51,707 nucleotides of DNA from Gammaproteobacteria bacterium (GTDB taxonomy: Bacteria; Pseudomonadota; Gammaproteobacteria; Xanthomonadales; Wenzhouxiangellaceae), in contig PWJA01000184.1 in NCBI GenBank assembly GCA_003560975.1, positions 1-51,707 on the forward strand. The letters are read 5' to 3'. Made by a program: the position numbers and the translations under genes. This document shows positions 15,782 through 24,965 of this stretch, in pieces. The notes under the pieces were generated by a model that worked only from the letters and a program-made list of their open reading frames with translations, did no database searches and was not told where the DNA came from. The first letter of the stretch is position 1. Each line of letters begins with the position of its first letter.

Positions 15782-18700
15782 CTAGTCCAGCTTTACCGGA
15801 TCGGCCGGGCGGGTCGGGAAGCGCGGCGGATCGGTCTCGATCTTGCCCATGACCTCTTCGATGGCCCGCTCCAGCTGCGGATCGCGACCCGCGATCACGC
15901 TGGCCGGATCGTTGTCCACCTCGATATCGGGCACCACGCCCTCGCCTTCGATGACGTAGTTACCGTCCACGTCGGCAAAACCGAATTCGGGGACGTTGAC
16001 CGAGCCACCGTCGATCAGCGGCCCATGGCTGGTGATGCCGACCACGCCACCCCAGGACGTCTTGCCGATCAGGGGACCAAGGCCGGCATTGCGAAACTGC
16101 CACGGGAAGATATCGCCGTCGGACGCCGAATTCTCGTCCAGCAGCGCGGCGAGGTGGCCGTTGAAGGCCTGGTTCGGATAGGTCGAGGTATAGGGCATGG
16201 TGCGCGAGTAGCCCAGCGCCAGCGGTCGGCGCGACAGGCGCTCGATCAGCATCTGCGAGACGTTGCCGCCGCCATTGGAACGCACGTCGATGACCAGCCC
16301 GTCCTTGCGCAGCTGGCCGTAGAACCACTTGATGAATTCGCGTATCCCGTTTGCACCCATGTCCGGAATGTGCAGATAGCCAACCCGCCCGTCGCTGGCC
16401 TCGCTGACCCGTCGCCGATTGTCCAGCACCCAGGCCAGGTAATGCAGCGGCGTTTCGTCGGAAACCGGATCCACGCGGATCGTGCGCGGATCGCTGCCGC
16501 TGGCGCTTGCGCTGACGGTCAGCTCGACGGCCTGCCCGGCCGGCAGGTGCAGGCGACGATAGACGTTGTCCCCGGCGCGCAGCTCCCGACCGTTGATGGC
16601 GATCAGGTAATCGCCCGGCATCACGTCGACGCCAACCTCGGTCAGCGGCGACCGGTAGCGCGGCTCGTCATTCTGGCCCTCCAGGATGCGCGCGATTCGG
16701 TAGCGCCCGCCGTCGATCTCGAAGCGCGCCCCCAGCAGCGCCACGCGCGGGCGTTCCGGCAAGCCTTCGTCGCCGCCGCTGACGTAGGCGTGGCTGACGT
16801 TGAGCTCGGCAATCATCTCGCCCATCAGGTAGTTGAGATCCGAGCGATGGGCGACATGCTCCAGCCAGGGCCGGTACGCCTCGCGCAGCGCCTCCCAGTC
16901 GTAGCCGTGCATGTTTTCAGCATAGAAATGGTCGCGGAAACGACGCCAGACTTCGTCGAAGGCGGTCGCCCATTCGGCCACCGGGTCAACGGTCGCCTGC
17001 AGTCCGGAGGTTGCTACCGTGGTCGGGTCACTGCCCTCGCGGGCGATCTCCAGGACCTGCCACTGATCGCCGCGGCGGGCCAGCAGGCGCTTGCCGTCGG
17101 CGCTGACGTCGCTGAGCCGAAGGCCGGAGGGGAAATCCGTTACCTCTCGATCATCGAACTTGAACAAGCGCAGCCGAGGCGGCCGCTCCGGGCCGCGGCC
17201 GTAGTAAAAAGCATCTGATTCGACGAACAGCAGGCCGCCCTCGACCACGCTCAGAGCGCCGATGTTGGCGTTGTCAACCGGAACCCGTATCACGCGCCGG
17301 CTGAGGCCGTCGAAATCGATCAGCGTGCGCTGATCCTCGCTCCCGTCCTCTTCGGCGTCCTTGTCATCGGCACGGTCTTCGGCATGAAGACCCTTTTCTT
17401 CCGCATCTTCCGGCGCGAAGGGGTTGGCGGCCGACCGATTCAGACCGAAGACGAAGATGCCGGTCATGCGATTGGTCGCGTAGTTCCATTCTCGCCGCGC
17501 GATCTGCGGTGCGAATTCCCGGTCGCCGAGGAAAAACAGGTGCTCGCCGTCGGCCGAAAAGCGCGGCATGTACTCCGAGAACAGGCCGTCGCTGATCTGA
17601 CGCGTCTCGTCTTCGGCCACGCTGTAGACATACAGGGCGCGCAGCCCGCTTTCCTGGACCTGGCTGAAGGCCAGGTAGTCACCGGCCGGAGACCAGTCGT
17701 AGTCGCGATTGCGCCAGCCCGGATCGCGTCCGGCCACGCGCAGTTCCCCGTCGCCGTCGGCGCGGACAACCAGAATCCGGCCATCCTTGTCCGACAGGGC
17801 GATATGCTCGCCGTCGGGCGAGAAAACCGGCCGGTAAAAGCGGGTCTGGTTGCCCGAGGTCAGCTGGCCTGGCGCCTCGCTGCCGTCGCTCGAGGCAATG
17901 TAGAGTTCCTCCTCGCCGGAAAAGTCGGAGATGAAGGCGATGCGGCGACCGTCCGGCGCCCACGCCGCCTCGCGATCATGGGCCGTCGAGCGATCGGTCA
18001 GAGCGCGCACGATGCCGTCGCCGACCGGCGTGTTGAACAGGTTGCCGCGGGCTTCGAACAGCACGCGCTGGCCGGTTGGGCTGAGCCGCGCGCCGGTGAT
18101 CCGGTCAGCCACGTTGACGGTGCGGACCCGGCGATTGACGCCGTCGTCGGGCACGCGGATGGAAATTCCGCGATCCGAGCCGCTGCGAGTGTCGAATATG
18201 CGCAGCTGGCCGTTGAGTTCGTAGACAATGCGACCGTCGTTGCCGGCGCTGGCCCAGCGCACGTCCCAGTCATCATGGAAGGTCAGCTGCTCGACCGCCA
18301 GGCTGTCGGGGTCGACCCGGTACAGGTTGAGCTTGCCGTCGCGGTCGGAGACGAAGTAGCCCATGCCGTCGATCCACATCGGATCGCGGTCGGTGCGCGG
18401 GTGATCGGTGAGCGGGCGGGCGTCGTTGCTTTCAAGGTCGAACAGCCACAGGCTCTGGGCCCAGCCGCCCTGATAGCGCTTCCAGGTCCGGAAATCCCGG
18501 AACAGCGGCGAGTAGAACACCGCGGCGCCGTCCTCGGTGAACGTGCCGGCGCCGGACACCGGCATCGGCAGCGCCTCCGGCAGCCCGCCCGCGGCCGCCA
18601 CCGTGAACAGCGTCGCCGTGCTCGAGCCCCACGCCTCTCGTTGCGATCGAAACAGGATGCGCTCGCCGTCCGGCGTCCAGCCGTAGACCTGGTTGTCGTA

Positions 18701-19054
18701 GCCCCAGCGGGCCGGCAGCGGGCCGGTAGCCGGGTACCAGGTCAGCTGGCGAGGCTCGCCGCCGGCGGCCGGAATGACAAACACCTGCTCATCGCCGCCG
18801 TACTGCCCGGTAAAGGCAATCCGCGACCCGTCCGGAGAGAACTTCGCAAACAGCTCCTTGCCTGGATGGCTGGTCAGGCGCCAGGCCGTCCCGCCGCTGT
18901 CGCGGGCCATCCACAGATCGCCACCATAGCTGAACACCACGTGGTCATCGTGCAGGTCCGGAAAGCGCAGCAGCCTGGTATCGGCCACGGCCTGGGCGCA
19001 GAAGAGCGCCAGCAGCAGGAACGTGACCAGCGCGCGAAAGCGGAAACTCGTCAT
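15782..19054 (-). CDS. Secreted tricorn-like S41 family peptidase
   Basis: This 1090-residue protein has a signal peptide (about 1-24, ending AQAVADT). Two TolB/PD40-type beta-propeller regions follow (about 25-320 and 320-630) with repeated '[12 protein letters not shown]', '[10 protein letters not shown]', '[12 protein letters not shown]' and '[11 protein letters not shown]' blades. Next come a tricorn-core/PDZ region (about 690-860) and a C-terminal S41 domain with the probable nucleophile S978 in [12 protein letters not shown]. This is the layout of tricorn protease homologues, which degrade oligopeptides. The signal peptide makes it periplasmic or exported, unlike the cytosolic archaeal enzyme. 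The ATG at 19054 has a good AAGGAAG ribosome site and begins [12 protein letters not shown]. It lies 37 bases downstream of gyrA, so it may be partly read from the gyrA promoter. Confidence 0.9.
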
Positions 19055-21815: not shown

Positions 21816-24200
21816 TCAGCGCTCAACCGGCCCCAGCCAGCGGTCCGCCCATTCCAGGTAGGCGCGAATGACCTCGGTGTAGCTTGGCGGCAGGTGACCC
21901 CAGTCCAGCACCAGGTGCTTCTTGTCTTCGGCCGGCGTGCTCAGCAGTTCGAAAAAGGGTCGTTGGGAGGTCTCGACCGGAAAGTTGTAGTCGTGGGCTC
22001 CGTTGATCATCAAGACCGGCAGTCGAACCCGCGCCAGGTAGTGCTGCGGCTGGATCTCCGGCGGCATATGAGTCCAGACCCCCAGCCCGCCGGACATGAT
22101 GATGGCGGCCCGGAAGCGATGCTCCAGGGCCAGTGAAAAGGGCGCCCGGTTGGCCCCGTAACTGACCCCGTGGTAGAGCAGCCGGTCCATGTCGATATCG
22201 CCGCGCGTGGCCAGATAGTCGATGGTCCGGCGCAGATCCTTGACCTGGTTGACGGTGAGCTGACGCAGACCGACGCGACCGGCCAGGCCCGGCGCCTTGC
22301 GCTCGAAAGTACCCTGGTAGACCGGATACACCACCACTCGACCGCTGCGCAGAAAGGGCTCGATGTGATGAAGCCCGGCCTGCCGGCTGGAGTCGAGCAG
22401 GATGGCGTCTCCTCCGGGGAAGTTGACCACGGTCTGGTGAGGCGGACGGGAGCGGCGCGGAATGAAGATCTGGACGAGCACGCGATCGTCGCCGTAGGGC
22501 GCTCGAAAGCTGACCCGTTCCCGACGCCAGTCCTCGTGCGAATCGTCGATTTCTTCCACCACAACGTCCAGGGGCATGTCGTCGTAGTCGAACAGACTGG
22601 CGTAGATGGCGAAGGTCTCGTCGTCGACCGGCTCGGGCAGGCTCCGGTCCGGGGCAACGAGCGCAGCGGTCAGCGTCGCGTCGTCTTCCTCGTCGGGCAG
22701 CATCAGGCGAAGGCCGAAACCATCGGGGCGCTCCAGCGGATGACGCGCCTCGACATCGGCGAAACGGTACGCGTCTTCGCGGAAGAATCCTCCGAGAATG
22801 TGGCGCAGCTCCCCGTCGGCGTTGTAGCACCATTCGGCCACGTTGCCGCTCATATCGAAGGTCCCATAGCTGCCGAGACTATCGACCGAGCCTACCGGCA
22901 CCGTGCCGTTCGACTTGAAATTGCTTGCCAGCAGCACGTCGGAAAAGTTCTGGTGCTGCGGCGTGCCCAGTCCGGCCGCACGGCGCCAGTGGAAGACGGT
23001 AGGCAGTTTGCGGCCGACGAATTTGGCATAGGCTGCGGCCTCGAACCAGCTGACACCGCTGACCGGATGTTCTTCCAGGTCTGCCGGATAGGTGCCCATC
23101 GCCCAGGTCGAGGGTCCCGGCAGACCGGTGCCGTCGACAAACAGGGCCATCATCTCCTCCCACGACAGTTCAGCGCCATCGCTGGCTCCCCGGTAGGTCC
23201 AGAATTCCGGCCGGGAATAACCGCCGGCTTCGACGAACGCACGGTATTGACGATTGGTGACTTCATGGCGATCCATCCAGAAGCCGGGCACGGTTCGTCG
23301 CTGGCCCATGTAGGTGACGTCGCCGGCCGGGACGTGGACCATCCCGTCAGGGACCACATCGAGTGGCTTGAGGACGAAGGTCTCGGCCAACGGCAAGAGA
23401 CCGGGCGCCGACTCGATGATCGCGTGGCCGGGAAGGCGGACGCGGAAACGCAGCATGGCCAGCGGCAGATCGATCGCCTCCAGCGGCGTGTCTCCGAGGA
23501 CGATCCAGTCGGCGTCGCCTTCGCGGAAGCCGCGCACCGCCACTTCCGCCCCCGGTGGCTCGCTGAGCAAACGGTTGGGCAAGGCGATGTCCAGCCACAT
23601 CTGCTCCAGCCTGAAATCCAGCGGGGCGCGGGCACGAACCTCGCGCAGCCGACGCCACGCCCGGGCAAGATCATCGCCCATCAGGGAACGGATCTCCGGG
23701 ATCGCGTCCTGGTCCAGCCAGCGCTGCACCGAGATCTGTTGCCACCAAAGCCCCAAGACCACGGCGAGCAGGCCGAGCAGGCCGAGCATTCCATACATCA
23801 AGGTGCGATTGACCGGCTCCGCGCTCGCCTGGATCCCGGAATCAGGCGCCGGTTCATCCATCCCGACCTGCTCTTCGTCCGCACCGTCCGGGGCGAGTTC
23901 GACCGGACAGAGGATGCGGTAGCCGCGCCGATGCAGGGTTTCGATGTAGCGCGGTGACTGGGCCTGGTCCCCCAATGCCTGGCGCAGCTCGCTGATCGCC
24001 TGCGGCAGAACGTTGGGCGACAGCGCCGTTCGCCCCCAGGCGGCATCCAGCAAGGCGTTGTGATCCTGCACCTCCGGCGCATGGTTCAGCAGGACCTCGA
24101 GCAGGCTGCAGGTCTGCTTGCGCAGACTCCTGTCGCCGTCCGGGCCGCGCAGAATGCCCAGCCGCGGATCAAGCTCGAAGTCACCGAATCGATAAATCAT
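21816..24200 (-). CDS. Fusion protein: CadC/ToxR-type winged helix + TM + SUMF1-like domain + alpha/beta hydrolase
   Basis: The chain has 794 residues. Residues 1-100 form an OmpR/CadC-type DNA-binding winged helix (YRFGDFELDPRLGILR, ending RYIETLHRRGYRILCPV). Residues 134-153 are a single TM helix. About 205-285 is a beta-rich region, and 287-500 is a SUMF1/FGE-sulfatase-like domain (MVHVPAGDV, MDRHEVTNRQYRAFVE, PVSGVSWFEAAAYAKF, DMSGNVAEWCYN). About 560-794 is an alpha/beta hydrolase with GVSYG nucleophile S680, acid D737 and base H769. The C-terminal SUMF1 stretch (GGFFREDAYRF to GFGLRLM) has no cysteines, so formylglycine-generating activity is not expected. The predicted topology puts DNA binding in the cytoplasm and the enzyme domains in the periplasm. 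The ATG at 24200 is chosen; a TTG at 24236 is an alternative. It diverges from the secreted-protein gene at 24360. Targets and substrate are unknown. Confidence 0.85.
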   Translation of the reverse strand: MIYRFGDFELDPRLGILRGPDGDRSLRKQTCSLLEVLLNHAPEVQDHNALLDAAWGRTALSPNVLPQAISELRQALGDQAQSPRYIETLHRRGYRILCPVELAPDGADEEQVGMDEPAPDSGIQASAEPVNRTLMYGMLGLLGLLAVVLGLWWQQISVQRWLDQDAIPEIRSLMGDDLARAWRRLREVRARAPLDFRLEQMWLDIALPNRLLSEPPGAEVAVRGFREGDADWIVLGDTPLEAIDLPLAMLRFRVRLPGHAIIESAPGLLPLAETFVLKPLDVVPDGMVHVPAGDVTYMGQRRTVPGFWMDRHEVTNRQYRAFVEAGGYSRPEFWTYRGASDGAELSWEEMMALFVDGTGLPGPSTWAMGTYPADLEEHPVSGVSWFEAAAYAKFVGRKLPTVFHWRRAAGLGTPQHQNFSDVLLASNFKSNGTVPVGSVDSLGSYGTFDMSGNVAEWCYNADGELRHILGGFFREDAYRFADVEARHPLERPDGFGLRLMLPDEEDDATLTAALVAPDRSLPEPVDDETFAIYASLFDYDDMPLDVVVEEIDDSHEDWRRERVSFRAPYGDDRVLVQIFIPRRSRPPHQTVVNFPGGDAILLDSSRQAGLHHIEPFLRSGRVVVYPVYQGTFERKAPGLAGRVGLRQLTVNQVKDLRRTIDYLATRGDIDMDRLLYHGVSYGANRAPFSLALEHRFRAAIIMSGGLGVWTHMPPEIQPQHYLARVRLPVLMINGAHDYNFPVETSQRPFFELLSTPAEDKKHLVLDWGHLPPSYTEVIRAYLEWADRWLGPVER

Positions 24201-24359
24201 TTCTTCTGTATACGTCAGTTCCGCTCCTTCCGGCAAGAGAAAAACTTGAGGATCTTTTCAGGGTTCTTGAACGTCTTTACGGTCCTGAATCGGCAATCTC
24301 GGGTCCCAGCAGCGCCTTGATCGCTGCAGACACTCCAATCACCGTTACGAGGATCCGAC
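24201..24359. promoter_or_regulatory. Divergent control region between the CadC-like fusion and the secreted-protein gene
   Basis: This 159-base gap lies between two divergent starts. On the + side a GAGG ribosome site precedes the ATG at 24360. On the - side GGAAGGAG and an AGAAGAA stretch precede the ATG at 24200. No clear dyad or canonical -35/-10 pair was recognised. Since CadC/ToxR-type regulators often bind next to their own gene, this gap is the first place to look for an operator; that is inference. Confidence 0.35.
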
Positions 24360-24965
24360 ATGAACCACTTGATATCGACACCGCTGAACCTTCTGAGCGC
24401 AGCCCTGATCGCCGGCATGGCCCTGAGCGCCGGCGAGGCCCAGGCCCACCGCGACCACGCCGCCCCCCTGGCCGGAGCAGACGCTTGTGAAACCTTCCTG
24501 GACGGACGTCCGGAACGCAATATCCCTCCGCGCTGCCGCGAACTGGCCGATCAGCTCAACCAGCTTCGTCGCGCGACCAGCGCGTTCTACAGCTACGACG
24601 TGGCCATCGCCGCGGGCTGGGACACCGCATTGAGTCCGTGCGTGGAAAGCCCGATGGGCGGCATGGGGTATCACATTGCCAACCTCGACCAGCTGGGCAA
24701 TGGAACCCTGTCACTACTGCGGCCCGAAGTGCTTCTGTATGCGCCCACCGAGGACGGATCAATGGAGTTTCTCGGCGTCGAGTACATCATTCCGGGCCCC
24801 TTGAGCGAGGAGCCCCCGGTGCTCATGGGCCAGACCTTTCACTACAATCCCAACCAGGACATCTGGGCCCTGCACGTATGGACCGCCAGAACCAACCCCA
24901 ACGGCATCTTCGCCGACTGGAATCCGGAGGTCAGCTGCGAGTTCGCGCCGCCTCCGGCCGACTGA
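24360..24965 (+). CDS. Secreted protein of unknown function with four conserved-looking cysteines
   Basis: The 201-residue protein has a signal peptide ending at AQA (cleavage near 29/30). The mature part has four cysteines (C43, C59, C94, C193), suggesting two disulfides. Striking blocks are SPCVESPMGGMGYHIANLD (about 92-110), LRPEVLLYAP (120-129), FLGVEYIIPGP (137-147) and LHVWTARTNPNGIFADWNP (171-189). I recall this combination (a GGMGYH segment, 'RPE.L.Y.P', 'GVEY.VP', 'LHVW...NP.G.FA.WNP.VSC') from a widespread family of uncharacterised secreted bacterial proteins, with no known function. The histidines H105, H161 and H172 could bind a metal, but this is speculation. It diverges from the CadC-like fusion and is followed by a hairpin shared with convergent mtnA. 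Confidence 0.85.
   Translation: MNHLISTPLNLLSAALIAGMALSAGEAQAHRDHAAPLAGADACETFLDGRPERNIPPRCRELADQLNQLRRATSAFYSYDVAIAAGWDTALSPCVESPMGGMGYHIANLDQLGNGTLSLLRPEVLLYAPTEDGSMEFLGVEYIIPGPLSEEPPVLMGQTFHYNPNQDIWALHVWTARTNPNGIFADWNPEVSCEFAPPPAD

Follow-up and report, generated by a model that had tools for sequence, protein, structure and literature searches.

A probable ToxR/CadC-like membrane regulator with a PEGA-like, SUMF1-fold and esterase-like presumed ectodomain and its predicted four-repeat operator in a gammaproteobacterium

The window analyzed here, i.e., the whole 51,707-nucleotide contig PWJA01000184.1 of a gammaproteobacterium of the family Wenzhouxiangellaceae (assembly GCA_003560975.1), encodes a 794-residue protein in which an OmpR/CadC-type winged helix-turn-helix (wHTH) is joined to one transmembrane (TM) helix and an enzyme-like C-terminal part. 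Based on its computed architecture, a catalytic triad, a repeat array in front of the divergently oriented neighboring gene, the promoter geometry of that gene and the association of array and regulator across genomes, we consider it likely that this protein is a membrane one-component activator of the ToxR/CadC kind with a PEGA, SUMF1-fold and esterase ectodomain, and that the array, which precedes a gene for a secreted protein, is its operator.

The open reading frame (ORF) of the regulator runs on the minus strand from an ATG at 24200 to a stop at 21816. A TTG at 24236 represents an alternative in-frame start, and the column of the ATG is occupied by methionine in 14 of 17 aligned rows. Three Pfam families matched above their cut-offs, namely Trans_reg_C (residues 26-96, E 1e-13), FGE-sulfatase (289-461, E 4e-27) and Peptidase_S9 (643-704, E 1.6e-7), and no receiver domain was among the matches. 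The top PDB match of the wHTH is CadC (5ju7). One hydrophobic segment was found at about residues 133-153, with the best windows beginning at 133-134 and a Kyte-Doolittle (KD) value of 2.15. The PEGA-like segment between the TM helix and the SUMF1 part was assigned by eye; a Pfam match to PEGA was obtained for the relative L039 but not for the regulator (L numbers denote loci and G numbers genomes throughout). The features of the gene are as follows:

21816..24200, minus strand: regulator gene, wHTH, TM helix, PEGA-like, SUMF1-like and alpha/beta hydrolase parts, 794 aa (ORF, Pfam, orthologue alignment)
23901..24200, minus strand: OmpR/CadC-type wHTH, residues 1-100 (Trans_reg_C; 17/17 orthologues)
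23742..23801, minus strand: single TM helix, residues 134-153 (KD 2.15; part of a continuous model helix, 130-176)
23373..23585, minus strand: PEGA-like beta domain, about residues 206-276 (strands in the model; resemblance by eye)
22695..23342, minus strand: SUMF1/FGE-fold domain, residues 287-502, without the FGE copper cysteines (Pfam, structure match, alignment)
21819..22622, minus strand: alpha/beta hydrolase domain, about residues 527-794, acetyl-xylan-esterase-like fold (Pfam, structure match)
22161..22163, minus strand: Ser680 of the GVSYG segment, presumed nucleophile (invariant across the 17 orthologues and 36 module rows)
21990..21992, minus strand: Asp737, presumed catalytic acid (likewise invariant in both)
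21894..21896, minus strand: His769, presumed catalytic base (likewise invariant in both)

An earlier note, made from the letters of the window, had described a wHTH at residues 1-100, one TM helix, a SUMF1-like domain and a hydrolase in one chain, and this layout is confirmed by Pfam and the hydrophobicity profile. It had also named a missing TM helix, homologues with a lost recognition helix or a frame that artificially joins two genes as grounds for rejection, and none of these applies. One strong hydrophobic segment is present, and the recognition region of the wHTH is among the best-conserved stretches. The frame is not a joining artifact, because the whole architecture recurs in 18 of 61 genomes searched, at 52-79% identity, in several genera and a second family. 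Our alignment comprises 17 orthologues: the G022 copy, cut off by the end of its contig, is short of 18 residues at its N-terminus, and G028 was excluded with its frame broken by a TGA. Across the aligned orthologues, Trans_reg_C and FGE-sulfatase were matched in 17/17 and Peptidase_S9 in 16/17, and each of the 17 has exactly one hydrophobic segment above 1.6. Together with G094 and G151, they give 19 wHTH-bearing sequences, which form one side of a branch with support 100/100 in an unrooted module tree of 36 rows; the wHTH is retained and strongly conserved in all 19. Among the matches listed, the only named record of this group returned whole was GSL.Bin5 (L034), a gammaproteobacterial metagenome-assembled genome. 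A pseudomonadal candidate (L087, 46%) was dropped as a relative, its match being split across frames. As a separate observation, G008 encodes a second, diverged wHTH-module protein (L133:6303-8753, 39% identical), the nucleophile segment of which reads AFSLSA and not GxSxG.

The lone TM segment adjoins the DNA-binding domain, and from this we infer that the ectodomain lies in the periplasm. Its structure was predicted with AlphaFold2 from a 15-sequence alignment in which only two sequences cover the wHTH. The model has a mean predicted local distance difference test (pLDDT) score of 81.5, mostly high from residue 130 onward and low for the wHTH, and residues 130-176 form one continuous helix. 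The best structural matches of the hydrolase part are acetyl xylan esterases and cephalosporin C deacetylase (Z ~25), with the acetyl esterase TM0077 (5fdf) at Z 25.2 and 2.8 Å over 262 residues; further esterases, together with lipases and S9 peptidases, come next with Z 22-24. Model and alignments place a Ser-Asp-His triad on this alpha/beta hydrolase fold, as in serine hydrolases, and Ser680, Asp737 and His769 are invariant in the 17 orthologues, in a 15-row alignment adding 13 relatives of other groups and in the 36-row module alignment. The SUMF1 part has the fold of the formylglycine-generating enzyme (FGE) according to Pfam and a structure match to the FGE-fold domain of EgtB (4x8b; Z 22.6, 2.4 Å over 207 residues). 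At the copper site of FGE, the cysteine pair of which we take to follow shortly after the GGSW segment, none of the 17 orthologues has a cysteine at that position; none of the 13 rows from other groups has the pair, and a few have single cysteines. With these cysteines absent, the SUMF1 part is unlikely to be an FGE or to synthesize formylglycine. As a whole, the ectodomain looks like an apparently intact esterase-like module with a predicted active site. The idea of the earlier note that this is a membrane one-component regulator with an enzyme-like ectodomain thus gains support from the architecture, the TM segment, the fold and the triad.

An enzyme-like ectodomain might nevertheless act through binding alone, so that the occupancy of the hydrolase fold by a ligand, not its turnover, would be the signal read by the same regulator. 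We regard this as a serious contender, albeit one on the lesser side of even. The SUMF1 part already lacks the copper cysteines of FGE, and the module consequently tolerates the loss of an enzyme function; its coupling to kinases, TIR and wHTH alike would also suit a generic receptor. However, plain binding has no need for the Ser, Asp and His that are invariant in all orthologues and module rows.

The second line of evidence for the activator proposed here comes from the DNA between the regulator and the gene for the secreted protein. The earlier note had named the gap 24201-24359 as a place where residues 1-100 should be tested for binding. That gap does contain a strong operator-like array, which is, however, arranged so as to drive transcription of the divergent gene, the one for the secreted protein. 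The elements of this region are:

24360..24965, plus strand: predicted target gene for a secreted protein of 201 aa with a CVESPxGGMGYH motif; signal peptide recognized by eye (adjacency, array)
24232..24278, plus strand: predicted operator, four 11-bp direct repeats, 36.7 bits to the operator model R1, a training site of it (alignment, model)
24294..24299, plus strand: predicted -10 (CAATCT) of the secreted-protein gene; the last repeat replaces the -35, spacer 17 (alignment)
24231..24236, minus strand: -35-like TTGCCG of the regulator itself, overlapping the operator edge (read from sequence)
24207..24212, minus strand: -10-like TATACA of the regulator itself, 6 nt before the ATG, leaderless-like (read from sequence)

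The secreted protein had no match in Pfam, NCBIfam or PADLOC, and a PDB search returned only an antibody chain at E 0.027. Its gene occurs in 17 of the 61 genomes, and the regulator is also present in 15 of these 17. In ten of the 15 both genes lie within ~1 kb (seven divergent, three tandem), and in the other five they are far apart or on separate contigs; regulator and target are also adjacent in G094 and G151. In 15/15 genomes, linked or not, the secreted-protein gene is preceded by four direct repeats in which an invariant A recurs at 11-bp intervals, and the lag-11 self-match of the array has a z of 10.7. Tandem direct repeats at 11 bp are what characterizes operators of the OmpR/PhoB type. 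A -10-like element stands at a fixed, gapless 24 bp from the last invariant A, with its second-position A kept in 15/15 and its final T in 14/15; none of 5000 shuffles yielded such an A-T pair. Since the 17-bp spacer puts the last repeat at the -35 position, the promoter has the geometry expected for class II activation. Where the genes are unlinked, the array accompanies the secreted-protein gene and not the regulator. Autoregulation as a rule was considered and rejected, as unlinked and tandem copies of the regulator have no site in front of them (the G022 copy comes without upstream sequence). Two observations stand beside these results. The promoter-like TTGCCG-18-TATACA of the regulator, with TATATAT at this place in 5 of 15 aligned relatives, suggests a leaderless-like transcript. 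In addition, G053 has a second copy of the secreted protein (L181, 46% identical) without an operator-like site, which hints at a differently regulated paralogue.

The operator model R1 was trained on the ten linked sites only, the five unlinked sites having been seen before training. In the 61 genomes it recovered the ten training sites and six of seven held-out sites (G011, G015, G009, G024, G030, and G006; E 3e-6 to 0.19), and the held-out site of G008 was found only with the filters off. The later-met sites of G094 and G151 scored 24.6 and 19.0 bits. The held-out total is thus 9/9 with filters off, with weak scores in G006 (13.9 bits) and G008 (12.7 bits). The genome of the window has one strong R1 site and one further weak match (E 0.39). 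As a control, 25 loci with a homologue of the secreted protein were searched in 21 genomes without the regulator: none has a site, and the sole match up to E 2 reached 8.0 bits. Eleven of these genomes belong to the order of the window and fall outside its 25 module-matching genomes; the other ten gave 0/10 with the regulator query and hold four further homologue copies outside the control search. Regulator and target co-occur: 15 of the 61 genomes have both, 3 the regulator only, 2 the target only and 41 neither (Fisher p 1e-9), and within the genus the corresponding numbers are 10, 3, 2, and 15 (p 5e-4), both p values being uncorrected for kinship.

R1 also pointed to a second candidate target. 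Its strongest matches away from the secreted-protein gene are in G022 (25.9 bits), G040 (21.6), G024 (20.8), and G013 (18.0), and those of G022, G024, and G013 lie directly before genes for small four-helix membrane proteins of one family with a THAHLLLVGF-like motif. The genus has nine copies of this gene, spread over eight genomes. A site lies 53-71 bp upstream of five of them, the G001 copy has a weak site (10.1 bits), and the G017 copy is the second gene after the secreted-protein gene. At 16 four-helix loci of 16 genomes in which the regulator was not detected, R1 gave no site. In G013 (L150:965-1002 and 1501-1535), sites were observed both upstream of the four-helix gene and upstream of the next gene, which encodes a large secreted protein. 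Assignment of the four-helix protein to DUF2871 was considered and is not claimed, the resemblance being very weak (E 1.2 and 4.2 in two of three). The R1 matches G006:C67, G040, and G030:C47 do not precede either target family and were not counted as regulon.

Several observations weigh against reading the array as the operator of this regulator. First, target and array are present in G009 (80% complete) and G015 (90% complete), but no regulator was detected there. Second, a TPR-type wHTH paralogue in G015 has nearly the same recognition helix as the regulator, with two residues differing in this stretch, and might bind the array. Third, G040, which belongs to another family and lacks the regulator, has its match (E 0.0013, L148:1501-1543) in an intergenic position pointing against the next gene, and this match scores above several true-looking sites. 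Besides, G013, G021, and G022 have the regulator without the secreted target, and no site was found in G021; the region upstream of the regulator itself has no site where the genes are unlinked; two of the nine four-helix copies lack an R1 site, one of them (G022) with a degenerate array by eye; and some R1 match at E up to 1 occurs in 37 of the 61 genomes. At 36-52% identity, the control homologues are further removed than the positives, and divergence could therefore account in part for the loss of the array there. Finally, the Lys/Arg charges flanking the TM segment in the 17 orthologues fail to confirm the predicted topology, and the structure prediction of the secreted protein reached only pLDDT 37, with no usable fold.

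The first three of these points would fit an array that is read by another OmpR-family protein, either a TPR-type wHTH paralogue or a two-component regulator, with the regulator described here controlling something else. We consider this improbable: regulator and target are adjacent in 12 genomes, divergently or in tandem, the 25 control loci are free of sites although a secreted homologue is present, and R1 gave no site at two loci of TPR-type paralogues or at seven other wHTH loci.

The module formed by PEGA, SUMF1 and hydrolase is not confined to this regulator. A scan of public genomes, of which the best 80 loci were kept, returned among these loci records labeled Aminicenantes, Myxococcaceae, Gemmatimonadetes, Bacteroidetes, Acidobacteria, Calditrichia, Verrucomicrobia, Phycisphaerales, Planctomycetaceae, and Deltaproteobacteria. 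Sixteen such loci (L035-L049 and L105) were considered, the N-termini of L045, L046, and L047 being outside the tally. The statement of the earlier note that in related proteins the SUMF1-hydrolase part follows a Ser/Thr kinase holds: among the matches listed, Pkinase stands ahead of the module in all six Pfam-scanned relatives of these 16 loci, from Acidobacteria, Myxococcaceae, Gemmatimonadetes, Bacteroidetes, and Phycisphaerales records. L035, L037, L040, L042, L049, and L105 have kinase-like N-termini by reading only, and L043 seemingly has TM segments only before the module, again by reading. The SUMF1 domains of single-pass kinases in Planctomycetota are described as lying mostly in the periplasm (PMC11032199). 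The acidobacterial L039:8720-11986 combines wHTH, Ser/Thr kinase, TM, PEGA, SUMF1 and hydrolase in one chain and is a possible bridge between the kinase and the DNA-binding versions. In the order of the window, 25 of 398 genomes have the module (E up to 1e-30), and 20 of these are of the wHTH type, including the interrupted G028. G080 (L212:385-2964) joins a TIR domain (PF13676, E 1.6e-15) via one TM helix to PEGA, SUMF1 and hydrolase, and this protein nests in the kinase group of the unrooted module tree. The module of G130 has a longer N-terminus; in G085, G143, and G163 it is preceded by TM segments only. These three would fit a membrane-tethered ectoenzyme with the wHTH as a passive anchor or vestige, yet for the regulator itself this is highly improbable given the strong conservation of the wHTH in all 19 sequences of its group and the association of the repeat array with the regulator. 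With respect to an anti-phage role, PADLOC gave no match for the regulator and weak TIR hits only in the TIR relative.

Judged from these proteins, the ectodomain is swappable: it appears with a Ser/Thr kinase in other phyla, with wHTH plus kinase in an acidobacterium, and with TIR or bare TM segments in the order of the window. One might speculate further that PEGA-SUMF1-esterase is a general, catalytically live cassette for any output of its host (~nine phyla by label), that the receptor itself hydrolyzes an extracellular ester and thereby generates the signal, and that the secreted target is a substrate carrier or feedback partner. We hold this wider proposal tentatively and with considerable doubt.

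As for the genomic surroundings, the regulator lies just before gyrA in the window. It adjoins gyrA only in G000, G001, G005, and G017, four of 18 genomes, and a functional tie was therefore rejected. Directly downstream of gyrA, on the same strand, positions 15782-19054 encode a Tricorn-like protease with PD40 repeats, PDZ and peptidase S41.

How the proposed membrane activator may work can be outlined as follows. The ligand would probably be an extracellular molecule with an ester or acyl group, bound and possibly hydrolyzed at the Ser-Asp-His site while the SUMF1 and PEGA domains hold or present it. The resulting change would travel down the single long helix and let the wHTH domains occupy the four 11-bp repeats. 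The last wHTH subunit, at the -35 position, would then recruit sigma70 polymerase to the secreted-protein gene, and in some relatives the gene for the four-helix membrane protein may be driven likewise. In this outline, binding of the array by the wHTH, activation as its effect, the topology, the class of ligand and any role of turnover are what we infer.

Compared with known systems, the regulator shares with ToxR/CadC-type proteins an N-terminal OmpR-type wHTH, one TM helix, the lack of a receiver domain and a C-terminal part presumed to be extracytoplasmic. At the sequence level, it has those features of this kind that could be checked, and its ectodomain, PEGA-SUMF1-esterase with an intact triad, is what sets it apart. 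The predicted operators differ as well: CadC binds two TTAxxxxT sites arranged head to head according to PMC5430869, in contrast to a four-fold 11-bp tandem array. This array rather resembles the multi-repeat operators of ArcA and PhoB with their 11-bp direct repeats; for ArcA, PMC3798270 gives three to five repeats at most sites, mainly at 11 bp. Unlike in these cases, the presumed reader of the array is membrane-bound and has no receiver domain. With single-pass Ser/Thr kinases that have a periplasmic SUMF1 domain, the regulator shares the same PEGA-SUMF1-hydrolase module after one TM helix, whereas a wHTH takes the place of the kinase; L039 carries both. The hydrolase part has its best structural matches in the CE7 fold of acetyl xylan esterases and cephalosporin C deacetylase, but it is only 14-20% identical in the rows shown and has GVSYG, i.e., GxSYG, and not GxSQG, which we take to be the CE7 nucleophile motif. 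No description of a wHTH-SUMF1-hydrolase fusion was found in the open-access literature, which was searched mostly short of full texts, and the main text of a census of transmembrane regulators (PMC10269533) does not contain the words sulfatase, hydrolase, peptidase or PEGA.

For this regulator, the predictions of operator, promoter geometry and target gene are precise enough to be tested directly. To our knowledge, few one-component regulators have an apparently working extracellular enzyme. Since a transcriptional read-out is easier to screen than a kinase, the regulator would also be a useful handle on what the SUMF1-hydrolase ectodomain of bacterial Ser/Thr kinases senses. One ectodomain appears to have been moved among kinase, TIR and DNA-binding outputs.

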